From positions 7,130,001-7,194,000 of the forward strand of contig NC_015957.1 in the NCBI RefSeq assembly GCF_000147815.2: a DNA stretch of 64,000 bases, read 5' to 3'. The notes under the pieces were generated by a model. The model saw only the letters and a program-made list of their open reading frames with translations. It did no database searches and had not been told where the DNA came from. The translations under genes were made by a program, and so were the position numbers. Shown one piece after another: positions 5,727 through 28,495 of this stretch (positions are counted from its first letter, which is position 1; every line of letters starts with the position of its first letter). The DNA comes from Streptomyces violaceusniger Tu 4113. GTDB lineage: Bacteria; Actinomycetota; Actinomycetes; Streptomycetales; Streptomycetaceae.

Positions 5727-6302
5727 ATGTCAGTACACGAACGCAAGGCACGCGAGCGGGCCAACCGCCACCAGCTGATCGTCTCAACGGCCCGCGAACT
5801 CGCCGAGACCCACGGCTGGGACGCGGTCACCACACGTCGGCTCGCCGAGCGGATCGAGTACAGCCAGCCCGTGCTCTACAGCCACTTCCGGAGCAGGAAC
5901 GAGATCGTGGGAGCGGTCGCAATGGAGGGGTTCGCCGAGCTGACGGCCGCGTTGCGGGCCGCGGTGCCGGAGGGGCCGGCCGACCGGGAGGCGGTGACCG
6001 CCCTGGCCCACGCCTACACGGACTTCGCCGAGCGCAACCACGCCTTGTACGACGCGATGTTCAGCCTCGACAACGGCCTGCCCTTCGCCGACGAGGCCAC
6101 GCCCGCCCCCCTGCGCGAGGGGTACCAGGCCCTGCTGGACCCTCTCCAGGACCACGCGGGCTCCGATGCCCCGGGGTTGTTCGTCGAGACGTTCTGGGCC
6201 GCGCTGCACGGACTGGTCACCCTCACCCGTGCCGGACGCATGCCCGCCGACCAGGTCCCCCAGCGCCTCGCCCTCCTGATCGACCGCTTCATCCCCCGCT
6301 GA
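5727..6302 (+). CDS. TetR family transcriptional regulator
   Basis: The 191-residue protein has an N-terminal HTH (HQLIVSTARELAETHGWDAVTTRRLAERIEYSQPVLYSHFRSRNEI) and a C-terminal domain of the type seen in small actinobacterial TetR proteins (ALYDAMFSL, then FWAALHGLVTLTRAGRMP). ATG at 5727 fits the family; a GAGG sits at 5721-5724, closer than ideal. Two identical operators upstream suggest strong autoregulation and control of the DUF1772 gene. Confidence 0.85.
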   Translation: MSVHERKARERANRHQLIVSTARELAETHGWDAVTTRRLAERIEYSQPVLYSHFRSRNEIVGAVAMEGFAELTAALRAAVPEGPADREAVTALAHAYTDFAERNHALYDAMFSLDNGLPFADEATPAPLREGYQALLDPLQDHAGSDAPGLFVETFWAALHGLVTLTRAGRMPADQVPQRLALLIDRFIPR

Positions 6303-6390
6303 GGCCGGTGGGACGCCGCCTGCCACCCCGCCACGGACGCGCAGCACGACCGAGCAGCTCGGCCCGCCCGGGGATCCCGGCCCGGTTCGC

Positions 6391-6705
6391 CATGCGGTGC
6401 CGTGGACCGCGATCAACCTCACCGACTACTACTTCGCCCGCCACGGCCACTACGACATTCCCGAACTGCTGACGAAGAACGGACGGTACGGCACCTTCAC
6501 CTGTGGGCGGTGCTCGTCCACCTGGTGTCGATCGCCGCCGAACTGCCGTTCATCAACAGCAGCAGCTACGTCGGCCCGCTGGTGCGATCCCTCGGCGGCG
6601 CCGACCTGTCCTGGCTCGTCGGGCTGGTCGTGGGCGCGGTGGGGTACTACGCCCGCACCAAGCTGTTCGCCGACCGACGGCCCCGGGCGGTCGCTCCCGG
6701 ACTGG
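6391..6705 (+). pseudogene. Relic of an NCS1-type (allantoin/cytosine) permease C-terminus
   Basis: From about 6397 the frame reads WTAINLTDYYFARHGHYDIP followed by LLTKNGRYG, the typical late segment of NCS1 nucleobase/ureide permeases. At about 6495-6505 it shifts and continues in another frame as AAELPFINSSSYVGPLVRSLGGADLSWLVGLVVGAVGYYARTKLF, the last two transmembrane segments. The N-terminal three quarters are missing and no start fits. The remnant runs up against the stop of the TetR gene on the other strand. An allantoin-type permease would match the ureide relic near 60.3-61.3 kb, though the two are far apart. Confidence 0.75.
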
Positions 6706-7326
6706 TCAGGAGCCGACGGCCGCCATGCCCGTCGGGCGTGCGGAGAGCAGCGCCAGGCAGTTGTCCCACAGGGCTTCGAGGTGCTGCGTGTTGTTGTAGA
6801 GCTTGGCGAACAGCACCTGGCCCTCGAGCTGAGCGACGACCGACCGGGCAGCGGCATGGGTGTCGCCGACGGTGACCTCCCCGCGCTCCCGGGCTTCGGC
6901 GATGACCGTATCGACCATCTCCACCTGGGCGTCGAAGATCTGCTGAAGGCGGGCGCGGATGGGCTCGGTCTGATTGCTCAGTTCCAGGGTGAGGTTGCCG
7001 AACATGCATCCGGAGACCGTTCCACAGCTCTGCTGGCCCGCGCGCAGACCGGCCTGGGTCTGCTCGAACAGCCGGCGCAGCCGCGAGAGCGGCTCCCCGT
7101 CGTCCTGCAGGGCCCGGGCCCAGTCGCCGCGCTGCGCCTGCCAGTGCTCGTCGAGGACGGCCAGGGCAAGAGCCTCCTTCGACTCGAAGAAGTAGTAGAA
7201 GCTGCCCTTGGGAACGTCGGCCGCCTTGCAGATCTCGGCGACACCCAGCGCCGAGTAGCCACGCAGCTCGATGAGCGAGTGCGCGGCGTTGAGGATCTTC
7301 TCCTTCGCATCACTGGTGCGTCCCAT
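6706..7326 (-). CDS. TetR family regulator, LmrA/YxaF-like
   Basis: The 206-residue protein starts GRTSDAKEKILNAAHSLIELRGYSALGVAEICKAADVPKGSFYYFFESKEALALAVL, a textbook TetR HTH with KGSFYYFF as in LmrA/YxaF-type repressors. The C-terminal part has CGTVSGCMFGNLTLELSNQTEPIRARL and a conserved LEGQVLFAKLYN helix. Upstream DNA holds LmrA-like half sites but no intact divergent gene follows, so its usual neighbour (an efflux pump or oxidoreductase) may have been lost. It could act on the monooxygenase locus to the right instead. Confidence 0.85.
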   Translation of the reverse strand: MGRTSDAKEKILNAAHSLIELRGYSALGVAEICKAADVPKGSFYYFFESKEALALAVLDEHWQAQRGDWARALQDDGEPLSRLRRLFEQTQAGLRAGQQSCGTVSGCMFGNLTLELSNQTEPIRARLQQIFDAQVEMVDTVIAEARERGEVTVGDTHAAARSVVAQLEGQVLFAKLYNNTQHLEALWDNCLALLSARPTGMAAVGS

Positions 7327-7437
7327 GGCGGTAAGTGTACGACCGATCGTCTATACCGAGAATCCGCAGCCCCCGGGCGTCCCGCCGGACGCCCGGGGGT
7401 CGGCCGGTCCCCCTTGGTCCATGCCGCTGGTGGCAAT

Positions 7438-7452
7438 TAGACGACTGGTCTA
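7438..7452. promoter_or_regulatory. LmrA-like operator, TAGAC/GTCTA inverted repeat
   Basis: TAGAC (7438-7442), five bases, then GTCTA (7448-7452). The pattern resembles the TAGACC-N-GGTCTA sites of LmrA/QdoR repressors, and the adjacent regulator is of that type. It lies 112 bases upstream of the TetR start. The rest of 7327-7620 has no credible gene. Confidence 0.55.
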
Positions 7453-7468
7453 CTAATCTTTAGCCGAT

Positions 7469-7485
7469 CGGTCGACTATCGACCG
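7469..7485. promoter_or_regulatory. Second palindrome beyond the LmrA-like site
   Basis: CGGTCGA-CTA-TCGACCG is a perfect 7-base-arm inverted repeat, 17 bases after the first site. A tiny frame of six codons begins at the ATG of 7487 immediately after it and stops, as if the first gene controlled from here had been lost. Confidence 0.45.
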
Positions 7486-7620
7486 CATGCTCAAGGCCGC
7501 TGCCTGATCAGTCCGCCGGACGCAAGCCCGTCGCCCGGCCCGGTAGGCACCCGACGGTGCCCTCACACACGGTTCCGACCGACCGCCCCTGTGGCCATGC
7601 CACCGGTCCTCTCGATCGCA

Positions 7621-8733
7621 TCAGCGCGGCTGGAAGAACGCGAGCATCTTCCGGCCGGCGTCCGGCGACATCAGGATTTCCTGGACGCTCGCGGACTGCC
7701 GACCGGCAGTGCTGGTGCGTTCGAACATCTCGCGTTCGTATTCCCCCACGGCGGCGGGAAAGTCGTCCGGGTGCGCGGCCAGCGCGAGGCCGAGCAAGGC
7801 GCCGTCGAGCAGTGCCATGTTGGCGCCCTGCCCCACCGGCGGCATCAGGTGCGCGGCGTCGCCGAGCAGCGTGATGTCCGGTGTCGACGGCCAGGTCAGA
7901 CCGACCGGAAGCGTGGTGATCGACCGTGGCAGGACCGTGTCGTCGCAGGCGGCGATCAGCGCGGTGAACCGTGCGTCCCAGCCGGTGAACAGGTCGATCA
8001 GCCGCGCCCGGGCGGCGGCGGGGTCGTCGAACGGGATGCCACTACGGCCGAACCAGTCCTCGGCGGTGTAGAAGCTGAGGTAGATGCGTACGCGGCCGTC
8101 GCCGTTGCGCTGTGCCGAGAGGGATTGTCCGTTGCCGAGCGCCCAGTAATTGCCGCGCCCAACCATCGCCGCGAGATCGGGATGGGTGCGGTCGATCTCG
8201 GGAATCCCGAGCTCAACGACGTTTTGGCCGGTGTGCGTTGGTCGGGCGTCGGTGAGCAGGGCGCGGACCCGGGAGTCCGCGCCGTCGGCGCCGACCAACA
8301 GGTCATACGTCGTGCTGCTGCCGTCGGCGAAGTGCAGCAGGCCGTCACCGGCGTGCTCGAAGGCGTGCCCCCAACGCACCGCGTGCTCGGGCAGCGAATC
8401 CAGCAGCAGATGACGCAGATCGGCACGGTCGACCTCGGGTCGGTCGAGCGGGGCGTCCTCGGGCGTGTCCTCCTGCAGCAGGAGGGTGCCGTCCGGCTCC
8501 AGAAGGCGCAGGTCCTGGCCTTCGCGACGGGCCATCGCGCGGAACTGGTCGATCAGACCGGCCTCGTGTATCGCCCGTTGACCGGTCTCGGTGTGCAGGT
8601 CGAGCATGCCGCCCTGACCGCGGGCGTCGCGCGACGGTTCGCGTTCGTACACGATGGCGTCGATGCCGTTCACGTGCAGCACACGGGCAAGGGCCAGGCC
8701 GCCCAAGCCGGCTCCAACGATGCCGATGGTCAT
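7621..8733 (-). CDS. FAD-dependent monooxygenase, TetX-like
   Basis: The 370-residue flavoprotein begins MTIGIVGAGLGGLALARVLH, the FAD-binding GxGxxG motif. GQGGMLDLHTETGQRAIHEAG matches the GG-LDLH signature of TetX-like tetracycline and aromatic-polyketide monooxygenases. LLVGADGADSRVR (the DG motif) and ITLLGDAAHLMPPVGQGANMALLDG (the GD motif) complete a group A flavin hydroxylase. GGAGG precedes the ATG. It starts 13 bases after the stop of the Clp N-domain gene, so the two form an operon. Hydroxylation of an aromatic or antibiotic substrate is likely; tetracycline inactivation is only a possibility. Confidence 0.85.
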   Translation of the reverse strand: MTIGIVGAGLGGLALARVLHVNGIDAIVYEREPSRDARGQGGMLDLHTETGQRAIHEAGLIDQFRAMARREGQDLRLLEPDGTLLLQEDTPEDAPLDRPEVDRADLRHLLLDSLPEHAVRWGHAFEHAGDGLLHFADGSSTTYDLLVGADGADSRVRALLTDARPTHTGQNVVELGIPEIDRTHPDLAAMVGRGNYWALGNGQSLSAQRNGDGRVRIYLSFYTAEDWFGRSGIPFDDPAAARARLIDLFTGWDARFTALIAACDDTVLPRSITTLPVGLTWPSTPDITLLGDAAHLMPPVGQGANMALLDGALLGLALAAHPDDFPAAVGEYEREMFERTSTAGRQSASVQEILMSPDAGRKMLAFFQPR

Positions 8734-8746
8734 GGTTGCCTCCGAT

Positions 8747-9718
8747 TCACCGGCGGAGCCGGGGCGCGAGCACCGTACGCACGGCCTTGGCCACCTTGCT
8801 CGCGGCGGATCCGTCCGCCTCCTCGGGTTCCGGTTCCAGCACGCGCTGGATCTGCAGCAGCAGTTGGTTGGTCGACCGCCAGAGCGGGACGAACATCCCG
8901 GCGACCGGCCCGACGCCATGGATCGGGCCGCCGGACAGCTCGGTGACGTTCTTGGCGATCGTGACCGTTGCCGGGTCCCGCAGGATCAGGTGCACCTCTT
9001 CGTCGACCAGCCGGATTTCCATCCTGCGCGCGGCGGCTTCCTCCGGGTTCGCGTCCGTGGTCGTCTCCGGGTCCAGTTCGTCGATCTTGGCGGCGACCGC
9101 GTCCGGGTCGACTCCGAGTTCGCGCAACACCCTGGCCGCCATGCTGTTCTCCGCCCGCAGCATCGCCTCTAGAAGGTGATGGCTGCCGACCGGTGCGCCA
9201 CCGGCCAGCGCGCCGGCGGCGGACACGGTGTCCTCCGTGGCAGGTGTGCCGGCCGGCCATGGGCCTGCCGCGGCGTCCGGCGATCCCTCCGCTGAGGCCA
9301 GCACCGCGGCACGGATCTTGCTGATCGGACTGATCCGCTCGGCAAGCGCCTTCGCGCCGACGCCCTCACCTTCGCTGACCAGGGCGAGCAGGATGTGTTC
9401 CGTACCGATGTAGGTGTGGTGGAGCTGCTGCGCCTCGCGCACGGCGAGGTCCAGCGTCTTCTTCGCGCGCGGCGCGAACGGGATATGGCCGCTCAGCTCC
9501 TGCGCGCCGGGCTTGACCACCGCGGCGATATCGGCCCGCGCCGTCTCCTTGTCGTACCCGAGCCGGTGCAGAACCTTCGCCGCCGTGCTGTCCGGCGCGT
9601 CGAGCAGCCCCAACAGGATGTGCTCCGTGCCGATGTAGTGGTGCTTGAGCAGCCTCGCCTCCTCCTGAGCCGTGACGACCACCTTGCGGGCTTCCACCGT
9701 GAACCTTTCAAATGGCAT
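8747..9718 (-). CDS. Stand-alone Clp N-domain protein
   Basis: The 323-residue protein starts MPFERFTVEARKVVVTAQEEARLLKHHYIGTEHILLGLL, the ClpC/ClpA N-domain. A second repeat follows at about 75-140 (AKKTLDLAVREAQQLHHTYIGTEHILLALV), and a third degenerate one at about 170-215 (GAPVGSHHLLEAMLRAENSMAARVLRELGV). No Walker A or B motif is present, so it lacks the AAA+ unfoldase rings. The C-terminus (DEEVHLILRDPATV, then MFVPLWRSTNQLLLQIQRVLEPEP) is not recognised. It probably binds Clp substrates or Arg-modified proteins without unfolding them. It shares an operon with the monooxygenase and is divergent from a small HTH gene. Confidence 0.85.
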   Translation of the reverse strand: MPFERFTVEARKVVVTAQEEARLLKHHYIGTEHILLGLLDAPDSTAAKVLHRLGYDKETARADIAAVVKPGAQELSGHIPFAPRAKKTLDLAVREAQQLHHTYIGTEHILLALVSEGEGVGAKALAERISPISKIRAAVLASAEGSPDAAAGPWPAGTPATEDTVSAAGALAGGAPVGSHHLLEAMLRAENSMAARVLRELGVDPDAVAAKIDELDPETTTDANPEEAAARRMEIRLVDEEVHLILRDPATVTIAKNVTELSGGPIHGVGPVAGMFVPLWRSTNQLLLQIQRVLEPEPEEADGSAASKVAKAVRTVLAPRLRR

Positions 9719-9735
9719 GTCTCCATGGTCGCAAC

Positions 9736-9763
9736 CCCTGTCAATACACTGTTATTGATAGGG
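9736..9763. promoter_or_regulatory. Operator between the Clp N-domain gene and the HTH gene
   Basis: CCCTGTCAATA (9736-9746), six bases, then TATTGATAGGG (9753-9763): 11-base arms with a single mismatch. It is centred between divergent starts at 9718 and 9788 and in an AT-rich spot, as expected for a MerR-like or HTH repressor site overlapping both promoters. Confidence 0.6.
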
Positions 9764-9787
9764 TCACCGTGGCGAAGGGAAGGTGTG

Positions 9788-10147
9788 ATGGAGACACCGT
9801 CGGACTGGGAGGACCGGCTCGCGCGCTGGCAGAATGAGCTGGAGCTGTTCGAGCGGCTGGACGAGACACCCTGGGTCACACTGGCCAAGGCGGAGGCCGA
9901 GACCGGCGTTTCCCGCTCCGCCCTGCGGTCCTGGTACCGCAACGGCGAGATCCGGTCCCGCCTCGTGGACGGCCCGAACGGGCCGCAGCGCCTGGTCCAA
10001 CTGGACGCGGTGATCGAGCGCGCCGCCGCGTCACCGCGCATTCAACGCCGGGCGGAACGGGAAGTCAGCCTGGAGGCCCAGGTCACCCTGCTACGGCACC
10101 GAGTTGACCAGCTCGAGCTGCGACTGGCCGCGCTGGAGCGGAGGTAA
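9788..10147 (+). CDS. Small MerR-like HTH protein with C-terminal coiled coil
   Basis: The 119-residue protein has a helix-turn-helix resembling MerR/excisionase folds (WVTLAKAEAETGVSRSALRSWYRNGEIRSRLVDGPNGPQRLV), followed by a heptad-rich tail (SLEAQVTLLRHRVDQLELRLAALERR) that should form a dimeric coiled coil. No effector domain is present. It is divergent from the Clp N-domain/monooxygenase operon with a palindrome in between, so it is the likely regulator of that operon. The ATG at 9788 follows AAGGGAAGG. Confidence 0.8.
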   Translation: METPSDWEDRLARWQNELELFERLDETPWVTLAKAEAETGVSRSALRSWYRNGEIRSRLVDGPNGPQRLVQLDAVIERAAASPRIQRRAEREVSLEAQVTLLRHRVDQLELRLAALERR

Positions 10148-10234
10148 GAGGAACTTGATGCGTATTCAGGCATTCGTCCCGTTGCGCTGAGAAGCGTTTC
10201 ATGGCCTGCTCCAGCGGCCGTTACGGTCGGATTT

Positions 10235-11686
10235 ATGGAGTGGAATTTTCAGACGGCCGAAAGGCTCGCGGCCGCTTTGCGTGCCGGTGAAGTGACCTCG
10301 GCGGAACTGACCGACCAGGCGATCGCCCGTATCGAGCGGGACGACAAGGCGATCAACGCGATCTGTGTGCCGGACTTCGACCGGGCACGGGCCGCCGCGC
10401 GCGATGCCGACCAGGCGCGCGCCCGTGGCGAGGACCGGCCGCTGCTCGGCATTCCGGTGACGGTCAAGGAGTCCTACAACATCGCCGGGCTGCCCACGAC
10501 CTGGGGCATGCCGCCACACCGCGACTTCATGCCGGCCGAGGACGCGGTGCAGGTGTCGCGGCTCAAGGACGCGGGCGCGGTGGTGCTCGGTAAGACCAAT
10601 GTGCCCTTGGGGCTGCAAGATATCCAGAGCTTCAACGAGATCTACGGCACCACCAACAACCCGTGGGACCACGGCCGCACGCCGGGCGGATCCTCCGGCG
10701 GATCGGCGGCGGCCCTGGCGTCCGGATTCGGCGCGCTGTCCATCGGCTCCGACATCGCCGGTTCATTGCGCACCCCCGCGCATTTCTGCGGTGTCTACGC
10801 ACACAAGCCGACACTCGGGCTGGCGGCCAACCGCGGTATGGTCCCGCCGTCCGCACCGGCCTTGCCGGTCGACCTCGACCTCGCCGTCGTCGGTCCGATG
10901 GCCCGCACCGCCCGCGACCTCACACTCCTGCTCGACATCATGGCCGGACCGGATCCGTTGACGCTCGGCGTGGCGCACCACTTGAGGTTGCCGCCCACGC
11001 GCCACGAACGGCTCCGCGACTTCCGGGTCTTGATCCTCGACGAACATCCGCTCATTCCAACCGGGTCGGCGGTGCGGGCGGGCGTGAACCGAGTCGCCGA
11101 CGCGCTTGTCGACGGCGGCGCCCACGTCGAACGGCACAGTCCGCTGCTACCCGATCTGGCCGAGGCCGGGACGCTCTACAGCCAGTTGCTGGTTTCGGGC
11201 TCCGTCGCACGTTTTCCCATCGAACCGTACGATCGGCTGCGGTCCCGCGCCGCCGGACTGAGCGCGGACGACCAGAGTCTCGACGCGGCACGGCTGCGCG
11301 CCATGGTGTTCAGCCACCCCGACTGGCTCCAGGCGAACAACCGCCGCGAACTGCACCGCCACGGCTGGCGGCAACTGTTCGCCGAGTTCGATGCCGTGGT
11401 GTGCCCGATCACGCCCACTCCCGCGTTCCCGCACGACCACGACCCCAATCCGCTGGAACGCCGGATCGACATCGACGGCGTCGACTACCCGTACTTCGAC
11501 CAGCTCGTCTGGGCAGGTCTGGCCACCATGCCCGGCCTGCCCGCCACCGCCATACCGGCGGGCCGGTCCCCCGAGGGCCTGCCGGTGGGAGTGCAGCTCA
11601 TCGGCCCGATGTTCGAGGACCGCACCCCGCTGCGGCTGGCCGAACTGCTCGAAGAGAAGATCGGCGGCTTCCAGGCACCGAATTAG
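10235..11686 (+). CDS. Amidase (amidase-signature family)
   Basis: The 483-residue enzyme carries the amidase-signature catalytic set: Lys in PVTVKESYNIAG, the Gly/Ser-rich TPGGSSGGSAAALASG with the cis-Ser, and the nucleophile Ser in GSDIAGSLRTPA. The C-terminal PGLPATAIPAG and LPVGVQLIGP are standard. No signal peptide is seen, so it is cytosolic, hydrolysing a carboxamide. It stands alone, with a weak ribosome site and a terminator hairpin behind it. Confidence 0.9.
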   Translation: MEWNFQTAERLAAALRAGEVTSAELTDQAIARIERDDKAINAICVPDFDRARAAARDADQARARGEDRPLLGIPVTVKESYNIAGLPTTWGMPPHRDFMPAEDAVQVSRLKDAGAVVLGKTNVPLGLQDIQSFNEIYGTTNNPWDHGRTPGGSSGGSAAALASGFGALSIGSDIAGSLRTPAHFCGVYAHKPTLGLAANRGMVPPSAPALPVDLDLAVVGPMARTARDLTLLLDIMAGPDPLTLGVAHHLRLPPTRHERLRDFRVLILDEHPLIPTGSAVRAGVNRVADALVDGGAHVERHSPLLPDLAEAGTLYSQLLVSGSVARFPIEPYDRLRSRAAGLSADDQSLDAARLRAMVFSHPDWLQANNRRELHRHGWRQLFAEFDAVVCPITPTPAFPHDHDPNPLERRIDIDGVDYPYFDQLVWAGLATMPGLPATAIPAGRSPEGLPVGVQLIGPMFEDRTPLRLAELLEEKIGGFQAPN

Positions 11687-11716
11687 GGCGTCCTACCGAC
11701 TGTCCGTCGAGGGCGA

Positions 11717-11754
11717 GGGGTAGCCGGTTCACGGCTATGTGCTCCGGCTACCCC
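11717..11754. terminator. Bidirectional terminator hairpin
   Basis: GGGGTAGCCGG (11717-11727) and CCGGCTACCCC (11744-11754) are perfect 11-base arms around a 16-base loop, located between the convergent amidase and cupin genes. No clear U tract follows, as is common in Streptomyces. Confidence 0.65.
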
Positions 11755-11791
11755 GCACACGTGTAACTGAGCTTTCAGTCGGCCACGCTTT

Positions 11792-12199
11792 TCAGTTGGC
11801 CACCCGTAGGTGCCGTCGTTCGGCCAGTTCCTCCGGGCTGACCACGGTCAGAACCGGGGTACCGGGCGGCGCGAACATGGTCACCACAAGCTGCGACTGC
11901 GCGTCCGGAAGGTTGTTGGCACCCTGGTAATGGATCACATCTCCCCCGGGCTCGAACAGGGCGTCACCGGCCTTGAGCACCCGGGGCGCCTCCCCCTCCA
12001 GCTCGAAGAGGATCTCGCCCTCGGTCACGATGCCGTACAGCGGTCCGGGGTGCCGGTGCGGCGGCGCGCCGGGGTCACCTGGCGCCAGGGTGACCCGGAC
12101 GGTCCTGGCCTCGGCGCCGGCCGGGATCCGGTCCGCCGCCCCCGGCAGGGTCATGATCACCTCAACGCCATGTGGCAGGTGTGCGTGCTCAGCACTCAT
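11792..12199 (-). CDS. Cupin-domain protein
   Basis: The 135-residue single-domain cupin has GAPPHRHPGPLYGIVTEGEILFELEGE (motif 1, with His ligands and the downstream Glu/Gly pattern) and a motif 2 around FEPGGDVIHYQGANNL. GGAGGAAC lies just before the ATG at 12199, so independent initiation is very likely. However, the frame upstream has no stop, and the MerR-HEAT regulator reads straight into it, so a fused form is also possible. It may be a small-molecule sensor or isomerase/oxygenase linked to the MerR regulator. Confidence 0.75.
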   Translation of the reverse strand: MSAEHAHLPHGVEVIMTLPGAADRIPAGAEARTVRVTLAPGDPGAPPHRHPGPLYGIVTEGEILFELEGEAPRVLKAGDALFEPGGDVIHYQGANNLPDAQSQLVVTMFAPPGTPVLTVVSPEELAERRHLRVAN

Positions 12200-13273
12200 G
12201 TGTTCCTCCAAACAGGGACTGTCCATAGAAAGGACAAGACGGCCTCCCTGTTTGTGACAGCCCCGCCTCCGCTCTTCGAGAAGTCCGACGAAGGACGAGG
12301 CGACGAGGGCGACAGCGCGGTCGTCGTCGTGGGTCAGTTGGCGCAGGACCTCCCGCACGGCGGTCCCCGACAGCTCGACCAGGGCCTGGGCCAGGCGTAT
12401 CCGGGTCGCGGAGTCCGCGGTGGGGGCGGCGAGTTCGTCGGCCAGTGCGGTCAGGATCCGGGCCCCGCACCCGGGGTCCTGGGACAGCGTTCCCAGGACC
12501 TCCGCCGCGTCGACGTCGTTGGAGCCCTCGACCACCATGCCGACGAGGGTCGGCACGGCCGCGGTCACGCCACGCTTGCCCGACGCCAGAGCGGCGTGTC
12601 TGCGCACCGCCGGGTCCGGGTCCCCGAGCGCGTCCGCAAGCACCGCGGTCGCGCCCGGGGCCTCGGAGATCTCGGCGATCGTCAGTACCGCGCGCCGCCG
12701 GATGTCGACGTCCTCCGAGTGCACGCCGGCGGCCAGCGTCGCCACGCCGTCGCCGCCGGATCGGGCGAGCGCCCAGCGCAGGGCGCCGGCGACAACGGGG
12801 TCGGATTCGGCCAGGACCGCTCCGGCCAGCAGTTCGGCGGGGACCGGCACGTCCCCCGGCCGGGCCAGGACCGCCTGCTGCCTGCGCGCGGCGCTGGTCG
12901 ACTTGAGCCCCTGCATGAGTTCGACGATGCGCAGGACGTCCTGCCAGCCGGTGGGCGCCGACGCATCGATCGCGCGGAGCCGTTCGAGCAGCTCCGCTTC
13001 CCGTGCCAAGCGGTCTTCCGTCCATTGGATGAGGTCGCTGACCAGGGCGGACGGGATGAAGGCCGGGTCGTCCAGCGCGCGCCCGATCTGCTTGAGCGAG
13101 AGCCCTAGGGACCGCAGGCTCTCCACGTGGAAGATCCTGCGGACGTCCTCGGCGGAGTACTCGCGGTAGCCGCCGACGGTGCGACCGGTCGGGCGCACCA
13201 GCCCGAGGGCGTCGTAGTGCCGGAGCATCCGGGCGCTCACCCCCGAGTGACGGGCCACCTCGCCGATCAGCAA
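11792..13273 (-). CDS. MerR-type regulator with HEAT repeats, in frame with cupin
   Basis: Starting at TTG 13273 (GGAG eight bases upstream), the frame gives a MerR winged HTH at residues 1-70 (LIGEVARHSGVSARMLRHYDALGLV, then VGGYREYSAEDVRRI), a dimerisation helix, and from about 120 to 345 alpha-helical HEAT-like repeats (for example VHSEDVDIRRRAVLTIAEIS and LGDPDPAVRRHAALASGKRG). The family usually ends near LLEERRR, but here no stop codon follows: about 20 junk-like residues connect it to the cupin at 12199, giving a 493-residue frame. A lost stop, or a genuine three-domain fusion, would both explain this. Its start overlaps the stop of the HEAT protein upstream. Confidence 0.75.
   Translation of the reverse strand: MLIGEVARHSGVSARMLRHYDALGLVRPTGRTVGGYREYSAEDVRRIFHVESLRSLGLSLKQIGRALDDPAFIPSALVSDLIQWTEDRLAREAELLERLRAIDASAPTGWQDVLRIVELMQGLKSTSAARRQQAVLARPGDVPVPAELLAGAVLAESDPVVAGALRWALARSGGDGVATLAAGVHSEDVDIRRRAVLTIAEISEAPGATAVLADALGDPDPAVRRHAALASGKRGVTAAVPTLVGMVVEGSNDVDAAEVLGTLSQDPGCGARILTALADELAAPTADSATRIRLAQALVELSGTAVREVLRQLTHDDDRAVALVASSFVGLLEERRRGCHKQGGRLVLSMDSPCLEEHMSAEHAHLPHGVEVIMTLPGAADRIPAGAEARTVRVTLAPGDPGAPPHRHPGPLYGIVTEGEILFELEGEAPRVLKAGDALFEPGGDVIHYQGANNLPDAQSQLVVTMFAPPGTPVLTVVSPEELAERRHLRVAN
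12209..12254 (-). promoter_or_regulatory. RNA stem-loop next to the cupin ribosome site
   Basis: CAAACAGGGA (12209-12218) and TCCCTGTTTG (12245-12254) are perfect 10-base inverted copies, with a nested pair TGTCC (12220-12224)/GGACA (12232-12236). In the minus-strand transcript the 3' arm runs directly into the GGAGG of the cupin gene, so folding would partly mask the ribosome site. Confidence 0.55.
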
Positions 13274-21791: not shown

Positions 21792-21934
21792 CGCACCTCG
21801 TCCGTTCATGCGCGCCAGATCTGCGGGTGTTACGCCTTCGTGATCTGCGGGGTGCCGGATCGCCCGGCTGTGACCTGGAGCAATGCAGGATTCCATCATT
21901 GACGAGTGGAAAAGCGCTCATTAGCGTCCGCCTC

Positions 21935-22942
21935 ATGACCCACCAAGCACTCGTGGACACCATTGATGACCTGGACCGTTGCGTGATCGCGGCGCTCCAG
22001 CTCAATGGTCGTGCGCCGTGGTGCGCGGTGGCCCGTTGGGTGGGTACGAGCGAGACGACCGCCCAGCGGCGCTACAAGGCTCTGCGCGAGCGGGGACTGC
22101 TGCGGGTCGTCGGCACGCTGGAGCTGGACCGCACCCGGGAGGGCTCGTCCATGCTCGTCCGGGTGCAGGCCAGGCCCGGTCGCGGGCTGGACCTCGCGGA
22201 CCAGCTCGCCGTCAGCCCGGATGTGCGCTTCCTGGCCGTCGTCACCGGCGCGGCCGATCTCATCGTCGATTTCGTTGCCCGTGACAACGAGGAGATGATG
22301 CGGATGCTCTTCACCGACCTGCCCGGGGCCGACCTGATCAGCAGCACCGAGGCGGTCGCCGTCATCCGTGCGTTCACCTCCGCGTCGATGTGGGACACCG
22401 GGCTGCTGCCCGCCGAGGCGGCCGCGGACCTGCGGCCCGCTTCCCTCGCGTCGTCGTGCGACCGCGACGACTGGGACGAGGCGCCAAAAGCGCTGACCGG
22501 TCTGGAGCAGGAGGTCGCGGCGGCTCTCAAGGAAGATGGCCGGGCCCAGATCAGCGCCCTGGCCCGGCGCCTGGGCCACACCGAGGCGGGCGTCGCACGG
22601 GCCATGGAACGTCTCATATCCCGTGGCATCCTGCAGTTCCGGACTCTGGTCGAACCGGGCCTGCTCGGGTACGACGCCGAGTTCATGGTGTGGCTGTCGA
22701 TCGAGCCCGACCGGCTCGAAGCCGCGGGGCGGCAGCTCGCGCGCCATCCGGGAACCAAGTTCCTGTGCGCGGCGACCGGGCGTTTCAACCTCGTCGGACA
22801 CATGGTTCTGCCCCGTCGCACCGATCTGCTCCGCTACACCAGTGAGGTCATCGGGACGCTGCCCGGGCTGATCGCCTCCGATGTGACGTTGCACCTCGCC
22901 ACCCTCAAGTACTCCTGGCACCGGATGGTCCGCACCGTCTGA
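21935..22942 (+). CDS. Tandem Lrp/AsnC family regulator
   Basis: The 335-residue protein is two Lrp units in one chain: HTH1 at about 8-55 (IDDLDRCVIAALQLNGRAPWCAVARWVGTSETTAQRRYKALRERGLL) with a RAM-like domain ending near 150, then HTH2 at about 185-230 (LTGLEQEVAAALKEDGRAQISALARRLGHTEAGVARAMERLISRGIL) with a second RAM domain. Tandem Lrp proteins usually sense amino acids or related amides and control an adjacent operon. Here that is the hydrolase/permease/SDR/fusion operon that starts 142 bases downstream on the same strand. Confidence 0.85.
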   Translation: MTHQALVDTIDDLDRCVIAALQLNGRAPWCAVARWVGTSETTAQRRYKALRERGLLRVVGTLELDRTREGSSMLVRVQARPGRGLDLADQLAVSPDVRFLAVVTGAADLIVDFVARDNEEMMRMLFTDLPGADLISSTEAVAVIRAFTSASMWDTGLLPAEAAADLRPASLASSCDRDDWDEAPKALTGLEQEVAAALKEDGRAQISALARRLGHTEAGVARAMERLISRGILQFRTLVEPGLLGYDAEFMVWLSIEPDRLEAAGRQLARHPGTKFLCAATGRFNLVGHMVLPRRTDLLRYTSEVIGTLPGLIASDVTLHLATLKYSWHRMVRTV

Positions 22943-23060: not shown

Positions 23061-23083
23061 CTCCGATCCTTGTGGAGATCACC

Positions 23084-24040
23084 ATGCCCACAGACGACTT
23101 CGGCCTGCCCTCGGAGAGCTGGCGCTGGCCCGAACACACCTGGCGCGGCCACGTCGACGCGGTCCGCGCCGGGCGGCGGCTGGTCCCCGACCGGTGGCCC
23201 GGCGGTGCCCGCGTCGCGGTCGCCCTCTCCTTCGACGCCGACCACGAGACGATCCCGCTGCGCGACGGCGGGACCAGCCCCGGCCTGCTCGCCCAGGGCG
23301 AGTACGGGGCCCGCGCCGGCTCCCCGCGGATCCTGGACCTCCTCGCCCGCTACGGCGTCCCCGCGACCTTCTTCATGCCGGCCGTCTCCGCCCTCGTCCA
23401 CCCCGAGGAGGCCCGCGCCTACACCCGTGACGGGCATGAACTTGCCGTCCACGGCTGGATCCACGAGCGCAACATGCTGCTGGGCCGCGACGACGAGCGG
23501 GACCTCACGGCGCGGGCCCTGGACACCCTCACCACGCTGACCGGCCGGCGCCCGGTCGGCATCCGCACCCCGTCCTGGGACTTCTCGGACTCGACCCTCG
23601 ACATCATGATCGAGCTGGGCTTCGCCTACGACTCCTCGCTCATGGCCGACGACGAGCCGTACGAGATCGTCGCCGACGGCCGGCCCACCGGCCTGGTGGA
23701 GATCCCCGTCGACTGGATCCGGGACGACGCCCCGTACTTCACCATGGACCGCTACGGCTCCGCCCGCCCCCACAGCCGTCCGCGCGACGTACGGGAGATC
23801 TGGACCGACGAGTTCGACGCCGCCTACCGGGACGGCGGCGTCTTCCAGCTCACCCTGCACCCGCACGTCATCGGCCACCGCTCGCGCCTGGTGGCGCTGC
23901 GGGAGCTTCTCGACCACATCGCCGCTCACCCCGGCGTCTGGTACGCCACGCACGCCCAGCTCGCCGACACGGCCCGCGACGTGCTGCACGGCCGGACCAC
24001 AGCCGGCTCCGCCGCCGACACTCCGGAGCACACACCATGA
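23084..24040 (+). CDS. NodB-fold hydrolase, PuuE/HpPgdA-like (deacetylase or cyclic amidase)
   Basis: The 318-residue protein has the NodB motif 1 as VALSFDADHE (metal Asp and base Asp region), motif 2 as VHGWIHERNM (His-x-x-x-His) and motif 3 as GIRTPSWDFSDST; VFQLTLHPHVIGHRSR supplies the late His. No signal peptide or membrane anchor is present, so it does not act on cell wall. Cytosolic members such as PuuE-type allantoinase and HpPgdA-like proteins attack cyclic amides, imides or ureides, and the M20 partner in the operon fits such ring opening followed by hydrolysis. The ATG at 23084 has GTGGAG seven bases upstream. Confidence 0.8.
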   Translation: MPTDDFGLPSESWRWPEHTWRGHVDAVRAGRRLVPDRWPGGARVAVALSFDADHETIPLRDGGTSPGLLAQGEYGARAGSPRILDLLARYGVPATFFMPAVSALVHPEEARAYTRDGHELAVHGWIHERNMLLGRDDERDLTARALDTLTTLTGRRPVGIRTPSWDFSDSTLDIMIELGFAYDSSLMADDEPYEIVADGRPTGLVEIPVDWIRDDAPYFTMDRYGSARPHSRPRDVREIWTDEFDAAYRDGGVFQLTLHPHVIGHRSRLVALRELLDHIAAHPGVWYATHAQLADTARDVLHGRTTAGSAADTPEHTP

Positions 24041-25365
24041 ACACCGGATCCGCCACGCCCACCGGCCCCCTGCGCCAGGACGGCGCCGCCCCCGCCACGA
24101 CCCGGCTCAGCGGCGCCCAGCGCAAGGCCATCGTCGCCGGCACCATCGGCAACACCGTCGAATGGGTCGACTGGGCCCTGTACTCCATCTTCGCCAAGAT
24201 CATCGCCGATGAGTTCTTCCCGAAGAGCGACGGCCCGGTGGCCCTGCTGTCCACGCTCGCCGTCTTCGCCGTCGGGTTCGTGATGCGCCCGGTCGGTGCC
24301 GCCGTTCTCGGCGCCTACGCCGACCGCCACGGACGTAAGAAGGGCATGACCCTCACGGTCGGCCTGATGGCGGCCGCCGGTTTCGTCATCGCGATCACCC
24401 CCTCCTACGAGACCATCGGCATCGGCTCGCCGCTGCTTCTGCTGGTCGCCCGGCTGGTGCAGGGCTTCTCCGCCGGTGGCGAGTTCGGCTCGTCCTCCGC
24501 GTTCCTCGTCGAGTCGGCGGCCCGTGGCAGGCGCGCCTTCGCCGGGTCCTGGCAGCAGGTGTCGGTCGCCGGCGGCGTGCTCGTCGCCTCCCTCCTGGGC
24601 ACACTCGCCACCTCGGCACTGAGCGAGGACGCCCTGCACGCCTGGGGCTGGCGGGTGGCGTTCATCGTCGGCGGCCTGCTCGGACTGGTCGGCCTCTGGC
24701 TGCGGGTCTCGGTGGCGGACACCGACTCCTTCGCCCAGGTGCGGGGCTCCGGCCGCACCCGCACCAATCCCGTCAAGGCCATGTTCGTGGAGCACCCCGG
24801 GGCCGCCCTGCGCGTCGCCGGCATCACGGTGGCGGGCACCCTCACCTACTACATCTGGGTCAACTACCTTCCCACGTACGCGAATCTGACCACCGGCATC
24901 CCGCTGAAGACCGCGCTGCTGTCCCAGACGCTGTGCCTGGTCGTCTTCGTCATCGCGCTGCCACTTGTGGGCGTGGTCTCGGACCGGCTGGGACGCAAGC
25001 CGACCATGGCGGGGTTCGCGGGCGGCTTCGTCATCCTGGCCTGGCCCCTGCTGCACCTGCTGAGCAACAGTTTCCTCAGCCTGTTCCTGGTCCAGCTCGT
25101 CGGCATGCTGCTGATCCTCGGCTACTCCGCCAACTGCGCCGTCATCATGGCCGAGCAGTTCCCCCCGGAGGTGCGTGCCACCGGTATCGCCCTGCCGTAC
25201 GCCCTGGCCGTCGCGCTCTTCGGCGGCACCGCGCCCTATCTGACGACGTGGATGCACGAGAGCGGCCACAGCGACCTGCTGTGGATCTACGTATCGGCGG
25301 CCTCACTGATCTCCCTCGTGGTCTACCTCACGATGCCGGAGACCAAGGACAAGGAGTTCAACTGA
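24037..25365 (+). CDS. MHS-type MFS transporter
   Basis: The 442-residue permease has 12 predicted helices. IGNTVEWVDWALYSIFAKIIADEFFP, the loop GAYADRHGRKKGMTLTV and LVARLVQGFSAGGEFGSSSAFLVE are the fingerprints of the metabolite:H+ symporter branch (citrate, proline/betaine, alpha-ketoglutarate, shikimate carriers). It starts inside the stop of the NodB-fold gene (ATGA) and ends one base into the SDR start, so it is the uptake system of this operon, probably for a small carboxylate- or amide-bearing substrate. Confidence 0.88.
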   Translation: MNTGSATPTGPLRQDGAAPATTRLSGAQRKAIVAGTIGNTVEWVDWALYSIFAKIIADEFFPKSDGPVALLSTLAVFAVGFVMRPVGAAVLGAYADRHGRKKGMTLTVGLMAAAGFVIAITPSYETIGIGSPLLLLVARLVQGFSAGGEFGSSSAFLVESAARGRRAFAGSWQQVSVAGGVLVASLLGTLATSALSEDALHAWGWRVAFIVGGLLGLVGLWLRVSVADTDSFAQVRGSGRTRTNPVKAMFVEHPGAALRVAGITVAGTLTYYIWVNYLPTYANLTTGIPLKTALLSQTLCLVVFVIALPLVGVVSDRLGRKPTMAGFAGGFVILAWPLLHLLSNSFLSLFLVQLVGMLLILGYSANCAVIMAEQFPPEVRATGIALPYALAVALFGGTAPYLTTWMHESGHSDLLWIYVSAASLISLVVYLTMPETKDKEFN

Positions 25366-26276
25366 TGACCCACGTCCTCGTCACCGGCGCCGCGGGCGGC
25401 ATCGGCGGGGCGATCGCCGAGGAGTTCGCCGCCCAGGGCGCGTTCCTCACCCTCGTCGACCGCGACCTCGCCCCGCTCCAGCGGACCGGGGCACAGCAGG
25501 GAAGCCGTACCGCCGCACGGGCCGCGGACCTGACCGACCCCGACGCGCCCGCCGCCCTCGTCGAGGCGGCCTGGGCGGAGCACGGCCCCATCGACATCCT
25601 CGTCAACGCCGCGGGCGTCTACCCCTCCCTCGACATGGCCGACGTGGACGCGTCGGCCTGGGACCGGCTGTTCGCCGTCAACCTGCGCGCCCCGGTCCTG
25701 GCCACCGCCGCGTTCGCCCGGCTCGCCATCCGCCATGGGCGGCCCGGTGCGGTCGTCAACATCTCCTCCGGCTCCGCGCTGCGCGCCCGCCCCGGCGGAG
25801 GCCCGTACGCGAGCTCGAAGGCCGCCCTGGAGATGGCCACCCGCGCCACCGCGCTGGAACTGGGCACACACGGCATCCGCGTCAACGCGGTCAGCCCCGG
25901 TTTCATCCCGGTGGACAGCGACTGCAACCCCGTCTCCGCCCAGTACGCCGAGGCCATCGGCACCAACCCACTGGGCCGCCCGGGAACACCACAGGACATC
26001 GCCCGGGCGGTGCGCTGGCTCACCGGCCCCGACGCCTCCTGGATCACCGGCGAGGTGGTGCGGGTGGACGGCGGATCCAGCACGGGCGCCCTGCACCTGC
26101 CCCGGATCTGGCAGCCCGACGACACCCGCGCCACTGCGCCCGCCCCGGTGCCGGCGACCGCGACCACCGCGGCCACGACCACCGCGACCGCGACCACCGC
26201 GGCCACGACCGCCACGACCACCGCGACCGCGAGCACCGCAGCCACGACCACGGAAGAAGGACGAACCACCCGATGA
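25365..26276 (+). CDS. SDR oxidoreductase with Ala/Thr repeat tail
   Basis: The 303-residue SDR has TGAAGGIG at 7-14, NAAGVYPS, catalytic Ser in VNISSGSALRARPGGG and YASSK. GRPGTPQDIARAVRWLTGP and WITGEVVRVDGG close the enzyme at about residue 250. The remaining 50 residues are an Ala/Thr low-complexity tail (ATATTAATTTATATTAATT) encoded by tandem DNA repeats, ending EEGRTTR. It is coupled to both neighbours by overlapping start and stop codons. It probably oxidises or reduces a hydroxy or keto intermediate of the same pathway. Confidence 0.85.
   Translation: MTHVLVTGAAGGIGGAIAEEFAAQGAFLTLVDRDLAPLQRTGAQQGSRTAARAADLTDPDAPAALVEAAWAEHGPIDILVNAAGVYPSLDMADVDASAWDRLFAVNLRAPVLATAAFARLAIRHGRPGAVVNISSGSALRARPGGGPYASSKAALEMATRATALELGTHGIRVNAVSPGFIPVDSDCNPVSAQYAEAIGTNPLGRPGTPQDIARAVRWLTGPDASWITGEVVRVDGGSSTGALHLPRIWQPDDTRATAPAPVPATATTAATTTATATTAATTATTTATASTAATTTEEGRTTR
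26154..26249. repeat. 30-bp repeats encoding the SDR Ala/Thr tail
   Basis: A 27-base sequence beginning GCGACCGCGACCACC is identical at 26154-26180 and 26184-26210 (period 30) and recurs with two changes at 26223-26249. It sits just before the start of the fusion gene at 26273. Confidence 0.85.
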
Positions 26277-28495
26277 ACGACGCCCAGCCGGTCAGGCCCG
26301 GATACACCGTCGTCGGCGCGGGAGCGATCGGCGGCACCCTCGCCTTCGCCCTCGCCCGGGCCGGCCACCCGGTCACCGTCGTGGACACCGACCGCGCCCA
26401 TGTGGACGCCATCCGCACCCGCGGACTCGTCGTCGCCCGCGGCGGCACCCGCGAGAGCGTGCCGGTCACCGCCACGACCCCGGAGGAGTTCACCGGTGGC
26501 CTCACTCGCGTCCTGCTGGCCGTGAAGGCGCAGGCCACCGGCACCGCGCTGGACTGGATCGCGCCCCGCCTGGCCCCGGACGGCTACGTCGTCTCCCTGC
26601 AGAACGGCTTCAACGAGTCCCTGATCGCCGAGCGTCTGGGGGCCGCCCGCACCGTCGCGGCCTTCGTGAACATCTTCGCCGACGTCATCGAACCGGGCGT
26701 CATCCTGGACGGCGGCGCCGGAGCCCTCGTCATCGGCGAGCCCGACGGCGCGCCGGTCAGCCCGAGGGTCCGGGACCTGGTGGCCCATCTGCACAGTTGG
26801 GGCCCGGCCGTGGCCAGCGACAACGTCGAGGGATACCTGTGGGCCAAGGCCGGGTTCGGCGCCATGCTCGCCGCCACCGCCCTCGCGGACGCCCCCATGG
26901 CCGACCTCATCGACCGGCACCGCCCCGCCATGGCCGCGCTCACCGGCGAGATCTTCGCCGTATCCGACCGCCTCGGCGTCACACTGGAAGCGTTCGACGC
27001 CTTCGAGCCGCACCCCTTCCGGCACGGGACGGACCCGGCCGCCCAGAACGCCGCCTTCGACCGTCTCACCGCATGGCTGCGCACCCAGACGAAGGACCGC
27101 AGCGGTATCTGGCGCGACCTCGCCGTGCGCCACCGGCCCGTGGAAGCCCCCACGCACTACACCGAGGTCTTCCACCACGCGGCGCGCGAAGGCCTGCCCA
27201 CCACTCTGCTGCACACGGTCGTGACCGGCCTGCGCCAACTGGAGGGTGCCGCGCAGGACATGTCGGAGTCGCGGCTGGACGAACTGGACCGCCTGGCCCA
27301 GCCCCCCGCGCCCTCGCTCCCGCTCGGCTCCGAACAGGCCGAAGCGGTGCGGCAATGGCTCGACGCCCACCGCGAGGACATGGTCGCCGACCTCGCCGCC
27401 TACACCTCCCAGGGCAGCGCCAGCGACGACCCGGACGCCCTGGACAGTTGCCTCGGCTGGCTGCGCGACTGGCTCGACCGGCGCCTCGGCGCACCGGACG
27501 CCGAGGAGACCCTCGCGCGCGAGGAGGCCGGGGACATCCTCGTCCGCCGCTACCCCGCCCGGGACACCACCACCGAGGACAACCGCCCCGTCCTTCTCCT
27601 CGGGCACTACGACACCGTCTGGCCGACCGGCACCCTGGACACCTGGCCCTTCCGGCGGGACGGCGACCACATCAGCGGCCCCGGCGTCTTCGACATGAAG
27701 GCCGGCCTCGTCCAGGCGGTGTGGGCACTGCGCGCCCTCGACTCACTCGACCTGCCGCGCCCGGCCTGCACCTTGATGCTCAACGGCGACGAGGAAACCG
27801 GCAGTCTCGCCTCCCGCGACGCCATCGTCGACGAGGCACGCGACAGCCGCCTCGCCATGGTCTTCGAGGCCGCCGCCGACGGCGCGATCAAGACAGCCCG
27901 CAAGGGCGTCGGACTCTTCACCGTCACGGTCACCGGCATCGAGGCCCACGCCGGTCTGGACCCCACCGCCGGAGCCAGCGCCGTGGACGAACTCGCCCAC
28001 CAGATCCTGCGTCTGACGGACCTGCGCGCCCCGGACGCGGGCACCTCGCTGAACGTGGGCGTGGTGGCGGGAGGCACCCGCAGCAACGTCACGGCGGGGC
28101 ACGCCGTCGGCCGTATCGACGTCCGCGTCGCCACCGCCGCCGAACAACAGCGCCTCGGAGACGCCCTCGCCGCGGTGCGTCCCGTCGACCCACGGACCTG
28201 CGTGGAGGTCACCGGAGGCTGGAACCGCCCGGTCTTCGAGCGCACGGAAGGGGTCGCCGCACTCGCCGAGCTGGCGCGCCGGTGCGCCGCACTGCTCGGA
28301 CACGACCTGCCCGAGGCGTCGGTCGGCGGAGCCAGCGACGGCAACTTCGTCGTGGCCGAGGGCACGCCGGTCCTGGACGGTATCGGCGCGGTGGGCTCGG
28401 GCGCACACGCCCGCTCGGAGAACACGTCGGTGCAGGGCATGGTCATCCGTGCGGCGCTGGCCGCCACCGTGCTGGCGGCGCTGGCCATGCGATGA
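26273..28495 (+). CDS. Ketopantoate-reductase-like/M20 amidohydrolase fusion
   Basis: This 740-residue protein joins two enzymes. Residues 1-345 are a ketopantoate-reductase-fold NAD(P) oxidoreductase: GAGAIGG at 15-21, VSLQNGF and Lys192 in LWAKAGFG. The Asn at Lys+4 and Lys+8 that bind ketopantoate in PanE are Gly and Ala here, so the substrate differs. Residues about 350-740 are an M20 metallopeptidase of the CPG2 type: His445 (LLGHYDTVW), Asp474 (GVFDMKAG), Glu507/508 (DEETGS), NVGVVAGGTRSNVTAG, then GASDGNFVVAEG and a late His in GSGAHARSENTS, so all metal and catalytic positions are present. It is the last gene of the operon and coupled by ATGA. It likely couples redox at one centre to N-acyl or amide hydrolysis at another. 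Confidence 0.85.
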   Translation: MNDAQPVRPGYTVVGAGAIGGTLAFALARAGHPVTVVDTDRAHVDAIRTRGLVVARGGTRESVPVTATTPEEFTGGLTRVLLAVKAQATGTALDWIAPRLAPDGYVVSLQNGFNESLIAERLGAARTVAAFVNIFADVIEPGVILDGGAGALVIGEPDGAPVSPRVRDLVAHLHSWGPAVASDNVEGYLWAKAGFGAMLAATALADAPMADLIDRHRPAMAALTGEIFAVSDRLGVTLEAFDAFEPHPFRHGTDPAAQNAAFDRLTAWLRTQTKDRSGIWRDLAVRHRPVEAPTHYTEVFHHAAREGLPTTLLHTVVTGLRQLEGAAQDMSESRLDELDRLAQPPAPSLPLGSEQAEAVRQWLDAHREDMVADLAAYTSQGSASDDPDALDSCLGWLRDWLDRRLGAPDAEETLAREEAGDILVRRYPARDTTTEDNRPVLLLGHYDTVWPTGTLDTWPFRRDGDHISGPGVFDMKAGLVQAVWALRALDSLDLPRPACTLMLNGDEETGSLASRDAIVDEARDSRLAMVFEAAADGAIKTARKGVGLFTVTVTGIEAHAGLDPTAGASAVDELAHQILRLTDLRAPDAGTSLNVGVVAGGTRSNVTAGHAVGRIDVRVATAAEQQRLGDALAAVRPVDPRTCVEVTGGWNRPVFERTEGVAALAELARRCAALLGHDLPEASVGGASDGNFVVAEGTPVLDGIGAVGSGAHARSENTSVQGMVIRAALAATVLAALAMR

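Follow-up and report, generated by a model that had tools for sequence, protein, structure and literature searches.

Hydantoin-utilisation and N-succinylamino-acid racemase pathways join a ring-opening enzyme to a hydrolase of N-acyl or N-carbamoyl amino acids, and in Rossmann folds NAD use is typically marked by an aspartate where the second strand ends. Among the described enzymes closest to the locus studied here, NADH-dependent D-2-hydroxyacid dehydrogenases are a known cause of false PanE annotations (PMC4353338), and the authors of the HP0310 study favour a small molecule as the ligand of this deacetylase-fold protein (PMC3084791); PMC4230899 and PMC4580590 belong to the same background. 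In this work we analyzed a window of Streptomyces violaceusniger Tu 4113, by which we mean the whole stretch of 64,000 nucleotides (contig NC_015957.1, positions 7,130,001 to 7,194,000), and within it a gene that encodes a ketopantoate reductase (KPR) fold and an M20 hydrolase resembling carboxypeptidase G2 (CPG2) in one polypeptide. We assign a probability of roughly 0.6 to the reading that this fusion tethers two catalysts of a catabolic operon to each other and is not an enzyme of pantothenate biosynthesis.

A KPR fold joined to an M20 hydrolase

The fused gene occupies a single open reading frame with no internal stop (Table 1), and both folds are complete in an AlphaFold model of the 740-residue protein (pLDDT 90.9, falling to 73 for the linker block 341-350). 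Pfam recognizes ApbA at residues 12-158 (97.2 bits), ApbA_C at 184-324 (23.4 bits, cut-off 22.7), Peptidase_M20 at 441-734 (77.7 bits) and M20_dimer at 541-633 (57.0 bits). We compared 75 related loci drawn from species-representative genomes, taking the best 80 of 329 matches. In 41 of these loci both domains lie whole in one stop-to-stop frame, which bears out the claim of a single joined polypeptide made in an earlier sequence-only reading of this DNA. Both families are also present in all 120 of the proteins listed, out of 523 that passed E 1e-3 among 7997 candidates scored; the similarity listing behind the two-fold assignment holds mostly M20-half rows, so that absences from it are uninformative. 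In 19 pairwise comparisons with the window, pN/pS was 0.387 for the KPR half and 0.365 for the M20 half, against 0.821 for linker residues 335-352. Both domains are under purifying selection, and the fusion itself is real and conserved in Streptomyces.

The sequence-only reading had itself pointed out that a one-base error near codon 345 could hide two separate genes. We looked for such an error, and the idea failed against the 41 whole fusions in independent loci. The homologues of other genera that carry separate, overlapping genes are what would speak for a sequencing or assembly artefact; set against these whole fusions, the presence of both families in the listed proteins and the coding selection on both domains, an artefact has virtually no chance of being correct, and the same evidence rules out a pseudogene.

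The KPR half was examined in an alignment of 39 rows, comprising 27 fusions, four unfused actinomycete genes and eight plasmid-borne relatives from Sulfitobacter, Sagittula, Alloyangia, Caballeronia, Deinococcus, Roseomonas and Neorhizobium. Invariant positions include D38, K85, N111, K192, G196, K274, S277, G278, W280, R281, D282, R286, R288 and E291. The Rossmann GAGAIGG (residues 15-21) and Lys192 named in the earlier reading are both present. Asp38, where the second strand ends, occurs in all 39 rows in place of an NADPH-type residue, and the fold together with this aspartate agrees, at the level of sequence, with D-2-hydroxyacid dehydrogenases of the KPR family. The same position is Arg in the best ApbA match of the organism's own genome and in the KPR-family structure 3hwr, and Asp in the D-mandelate dehydrogenase 8wl3. 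Four and eight residues after the lysine stand the positions that we take to be the asparagine pair holding ketopantoate in PanE. Here, as had been noticed, they are Gly196 and Ala200, the former in 39/39 rows and the latter variable (Ala in 24, Ser in four, Thr in three and Phe in eight). The loss of this pair, combined with the retained Lys, Ser, Asp and Glu, indicates a putatively active dehydrogenase with a substrate other than ketopantoate.

These residues bear directly on the proposal that the cell uses the KPR half as its PanE, for vitamin B5 synthesis, with the M20 half as a passenger. The KPR fold and the Pfam ApbA match agree with PanE, database names say as much, the NCBIfam PanE model TIGR00745 scores 138.7 bits against a cut-off of 141.35, and the rest of the genome yielded no clear PanE, its best ApbA match (L128, 5001-5969) also lacking asparagine at both ketopantoate positions, so that this match need not be a true PanE. 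We nevertheless reject the identity as very improbable, because of the NAD-type Asp38, the missing asparagine pair, the invariant new motif and an accessory distribution, the fused frame occurring in only 23 of 394 sampled family genomes; in addition, the supposed passenger is as constrained in pN/pS as the KPR half. The earlier reading had also allowed that homologues might reveal a known ketopantoate function. We found no homologue demonstrated to act on ketopantoate, nor any whose function had been tested at all.

In the M20 half, all 34 rows that include it share H445, D447, D474, E507, E508, E532, H559 and H712, in agreement with the earlier statement that the metal and catalytic residues are kept. 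These metal and catalytic positions align with CPG2, and the Pfam M20 match, the fold and the metal ligands are all those of a CPG2-like M20 enzyme. The NCBIfam models NF005602 (hydrolase) and NF004788 (glutamate carboxypeptidase) give 232 of 357 and 201.7 of 349 bits, respectively, neither reaching its cut-off. Judged by these conserved positions, both enzymes are intact and probably active within one chain.

Fused and separate forms among relatives

Apart from the whole fusions, the 75 loci include five that encode the two domains as separate neighbouring genes (L050, L054, L055, L057 and L058), one with KPR and no M20 (L059) and 27 matched by M20 alone. A family-wide sample of 394 genomes, the organism's own included, contains the fused frame in 23 and an adjacent split pair in two (G359 and G003). 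In all seven split pairs the KPR stop overlaps a start codon of the M20 frame by four bases, as GTGA (L050, L055, L057), ATGA (L054, L109) or TTGA (L058, L107). The split junction of L109 (G003, around 1400-1460) carries tandem copies of a short unit that contains a GGAG-like ribosome site and an ATG, so that M20 has several candidate starts in frame.

The linker ranges from 0 to about 250 residues in relatives and its sequence is unconserved. Low-complexity repeats extend it by 248 residues in L049 (8001-10907) and by 105 in L046 (8001-10529).

In a KPR tree of 59 rows, the fused label needs one change, with support of 73/59, and a single change suffices in 74% of bootstrap trees. A single origin of the fusion is compatible with this tree, that is, allowed rather than proven, because the support is modest. 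The tree excludes the repeat genomes L084-L106, as well as L002, L129-L131, the other KPR matches of the organism's own genome and L025, whose KPR match is shorter than 250 residues, and the long rows L111, L122, L116 and L123 are placed unsurely. In L025 (S. niphimycinicus, 6221-12318) the KPR half is split over two frames, the flanking genes are those of the window, and Lrp, PSD, MFS and SDR find no match; we describe it as a decayed operon copy or an assembly fault.

The operon and its proposed pathway

The genes around the fusion are listed in Table 1. Three junctions overlap, by ATGA between the polysaccharide-deacetylase-fold protein (PSD) and the MFS transporter, by TGATG between the transporter and the SDR, and by ATGA between the SDR and the fusion. 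A promoter scan found no sigma-70-type site.

Table 1. Features of the fused gene and its operon in the 64,000-nucleotide window
Feature	Coordinates	Strand	Remarks
Lrp/AsnC regulator	21827..22942	+	two DNA-binding units in one chain; start codon uncertain
PuuE/HP0310-like polysaccharide-deacetylase-fold protein (PSD)	23072..24040	+	proposed cyclic-amide/imide hydrolase; D55, D57, H127, H131, H263
MHS-type metabolite:H+ symporter (MFS)	24037..25365	+	TIGR00883 385.3 bits, under cut-off 443.45
SDR oxidoreductase	25365..26276	+	NAD-type Asp33, Tyr149/Lys153 (numbering from codon 25362); ATGA overlap with fusion
Fused KPR-M20 gene	26273..28495	+	ATG at 26273, stop ending at 28495; 740 residues, calculated 77.9 kDa
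KPR-fold domain, residues 9-329	26297..27259	+	Rossmann GAGAIGG, NAD-type D38, K192, S277-G-I-W-R-D282, E291
Linker, residues 330-350	27260..27322	+	neither length nor sequence conserved
M20 (CPG2-like) domain, residues 351-740	27323..28492	+	metal/catalytic H445, D474, E507, E508, E532, H712; also H559

Of 42 fused loci, 39 have PSD, MFS and SDR upstream of the fusion; the other three are L025 and two at contig ends, L033 and L023, the latter still with MFS and SDR. Because the domains share one overlapping operon and these three genes recur with them, a hydroxy- or keto-acid step and an amide cleavage can be placed in one pathway, as the sequence-only reading had suggested. The five PSD residues are invariant in 7/7 rows and match those of HP0310, including its metal site. 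In the SDR, the NAD-type Asp, the Tyr and the Lys are kept in all 64 relatives covering those positions. The 3' end of the SDR gene (window 26154-26251) is an imperfect GC-rich repeat array encoding a low-complexity tail rich in Thr and Ala, which is shorter in the close relatives L009, L017 and L024.

A PSD search at E 1e-75 over 346 genomes across the phylum matched the organism's own genome only. The named relatives are mostly Streptomyces with a few Pseudonocardiaceae, and we therefore took the wider context from plasmid records, 18 stretches in all, whose gene tables are incomplete, so that a gene absent there is not proven absent. The KPR relatives come from three phyla, Actinomycetota, Pseudomonadota and Deinococcota, and most of them adjoin an SDR, which directly follows KPR in six of the eight plasmid loci. 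The Sulfitobacter, Sagittula and Alloyangia loci hold creatininase, KPR, SDR, PSD and isoaspartyl peptidase genes beside a peptide-type ABC transporter; Caballeronia has KPR, SDR and PSD (an unannotated stretch, with the SDR read by eye and the PSD found by search), and Neorhizobium has KPR and SDR. In Deinococcus, L117 contains creatininase, KPR, SDR, an M20 dipeptidase from a different subfamily (508 bits against a cut-off of 441), an RraA-family protein and a carboxypeptidase, and in L126 RraA and carboxypeptidase stand between KPR and SDR. The two Deinococcus plasmid clusters (L117, 1810-14291; L126, 1740-17715) carry a peptide ABC transporter, a GntR regulator and a creatininase-family protein along with the NAD-type KPR, SDR, RraA-family protein and peptidases.

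The modules also occur apart. PSD and M20 stand without KPR or SDR in L051-L053 and L130, where the gene order is a partial gene with a racemase-like start (read by eye), a gene for which no family match was found, a PucR regulator, an Amidohydro_3 enzyme, PSD, MFS and M20. KPR and SDR stand without this M20 in L114, L115, L118, L122, L123 and L129 (Roseobacter-group, Caballeronia and Neorhizobium loci plus L129); the pair in L129 (G141, 7015-11806) is distant and lies near a lactate permease gene on the opposite strand. Since each pair is found on its own, the usual partner of M20 seems to be PSD, and that of KPR the SDR. PSD and SDR occur without an annotated KPR near hydantoinase A/B genes (L119, L124, L134) or with isoaspartyl peptidase and creatininase (L121, L133); PSD lacks an annotated SDR in L125 and L136 and has SDRs among other neighbours in L120, L135 and L137. 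Standalone M20 relatives adjoin o-succinylbenzoate-synthase-type genes in L061, L063 and L070 (296-316 bits, cut-off 200.65), a family that includes N-acylamino acid racemases, an AbgT-type transporter in L073 (below cut-off) and an M19 dipeptidase in L060. A second M20 relative in the organism's own genome (51% over 371 residues) has as neighbours an unassigned gene and a gene read by eye as an Lrp regulator. Enzymes that hydrolyse amides or rings recur across these loci, as do transporters of peptide or metabolite type and one or two dehydrogenases, but the gene set is not constant.

The operon probably breaks down a small cyclic or capped (N-acyl) amino-acid-like amide. Under Lrp control, the MHS transporter would import this compound and the PSD, by analogy, would open a cyclic imide, lactam or hydantoin-type ring or strip an acyl cap; the two-metal centre of the M20 domain would then cleave the resulting N-acyl(amino acid) amide bond, and the KPR domain and the SDR would oxidize the freed hydroxy acid with NAD+, with Lys192 as the presumed general acid/base. 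The anatomy and residues are read directly, whereas the order of steps, the redox direction and the class of substrate are our inference. The tether would mainly secure proximity and co-production in equal amounts. More tentatively, Actinomycetota, Pseudomonadota and Deinococcota may share, in mosaic form, a catabolic pathway for cyclic or capped hydroxyacyl-amino acid conjugates (e.g. N-lactoyl- or pantothenate-like amides, or their lactams). A cyclic amidase of the deacetylase fold would open these conjugates, an amide hydrolase would cut them, and a new NAD-dependent subfamily of KPR enzymes, misnamed PanE, would drain them; two of the pathway's enzymes would have become fused in Streptomyces.

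The sequence-only reading went further and had the two activities work on consecutive intermediates. In favor of an intermediate handed from one active site to the other are the adjacency and overlap of the halves even when unfused (7/7 split pairs) and the independent KPR-SDR-M20 dipeptidase order in Deinococcus L117. We consider such consecutive steps rather unlikely: the modules found apart elsewhere mean that consecutive intermediates are not implied, and because the linker is so free in length and sequence a fixed channel is disfavoured, making direct channelling between the active sites unlikely.

A different catabolic role starts from pantothenate, which is an N-(2-hydroxyacyl) amino acid, and from pantoate, the product of the classical KPR-fold enzyme. 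Here the M20 domain would be a pantothenase releasing pantoate and beta-alanine, with KPR oxidizing the 2-hydroxyl and the SDR the 4-hydroxyl of pantoate. Two NAD-type dehydrogenases would match the two hydroxyls, and an RraA-family gene lies near KPR in L117 and adjoins it in L126. Yet the asparagine pair for ketopantoate is lost, a role for the PSD is not evident, racemase-type and hydantoinase genes adjoin relatives of M20 and PSD, and the literature search named no pantothenase gene for comparison; we therefore judge pantothenate degradation quite improbable.

Several observations weigh against a tethered catalyst of a catabolic operon. The PSD is far from the PuuE allantoinase model TIGR03212 (106.5 of 424.6 bits, below the cut-off), so ring opening rests on analogy, and HP0310 showed no activity on allantoin or on any other compound tried (PMC3084791). 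NAD preference and oxidative direction would hang on one acidic residue per dehydrogenase, and the PanE model is missed by a narrow margin only. Of the 39 fused operons, 31 have a close, same-strand Lrp gene; in the other eight there is either only a distant match on the other strand (five) or none (three). L059 carries the operon without M20, Roseomonas L116 has KPR with none of these partners, and the variable neighbours (isoaspartyl peptidase, M32, RraA, creatininase) may correspond to several substrates.

Comparison with known systems

Each half alone belongs to a known kind; no description of the pairing, the KPR subfamily or the operon was found in the literature searched, which left most subscription journals outside. 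The earlier claim that no described enzyme has this pairing holds for that literature, but databases commonly contain proteins of this architecture, named '2-dehydropantoate 2-reductase' or 'M20/M25/M40 family metallo-hydrolase'. A KPR subfamily in three phyla is thereby labelled as a vitamin B5 enzyme, a database error in that its sequence argues against the label. The compact operon allows the missing substrate to be sought by growth and metabolomic tests, and the fused and split versions offer a natural experiment on the tethering of operon enzymes when the linker varies freely.

Compared with PanE/ApbA (EC 1.1.1.169), the fusion has the NAD-type Asp38, Gly196/Ala200 instead of the asparagine pair, the invariant W280-R281 and R286/R288, an M20 partner domain and a catabolic-type operon. 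To the D-mandelate and D-2-hydroxyacid dehydrogenases of the KPR family, its KPR half is related at about 20% identity (5x20), although D-mandelate dehydrogenase 8wl3 retains the asparagine pair in the alignment and the KPR half does not. The M20 half shares 26% identity with CPG2 (1cg2), one of the M20 N-acyl amino acid hydrolases; it differs from CPG2 in its K540-T-x-R-K-G motif and in being fused, and glutamate release is only putative. The PSD belongs by sequence to the same fold family as PuuE allantoinase and HP0310-type deacetylases and has metal-site residues as in HP0310, whereas PuuE lacks the second histidine in the alignment. Finally, the operon recalls the hydantoin-utilisation and N-succinylamino-acid racemase pathways in its combination of a proposed ring opener and a hydrolase, and in M20 relatives beside o-succinylbenzoate-synthase-type genes, but it differs from them in having no racemase, in having two dehydrogenases, and in an M20 enzyme that is CPG2-like and not of the carbamoylase type.

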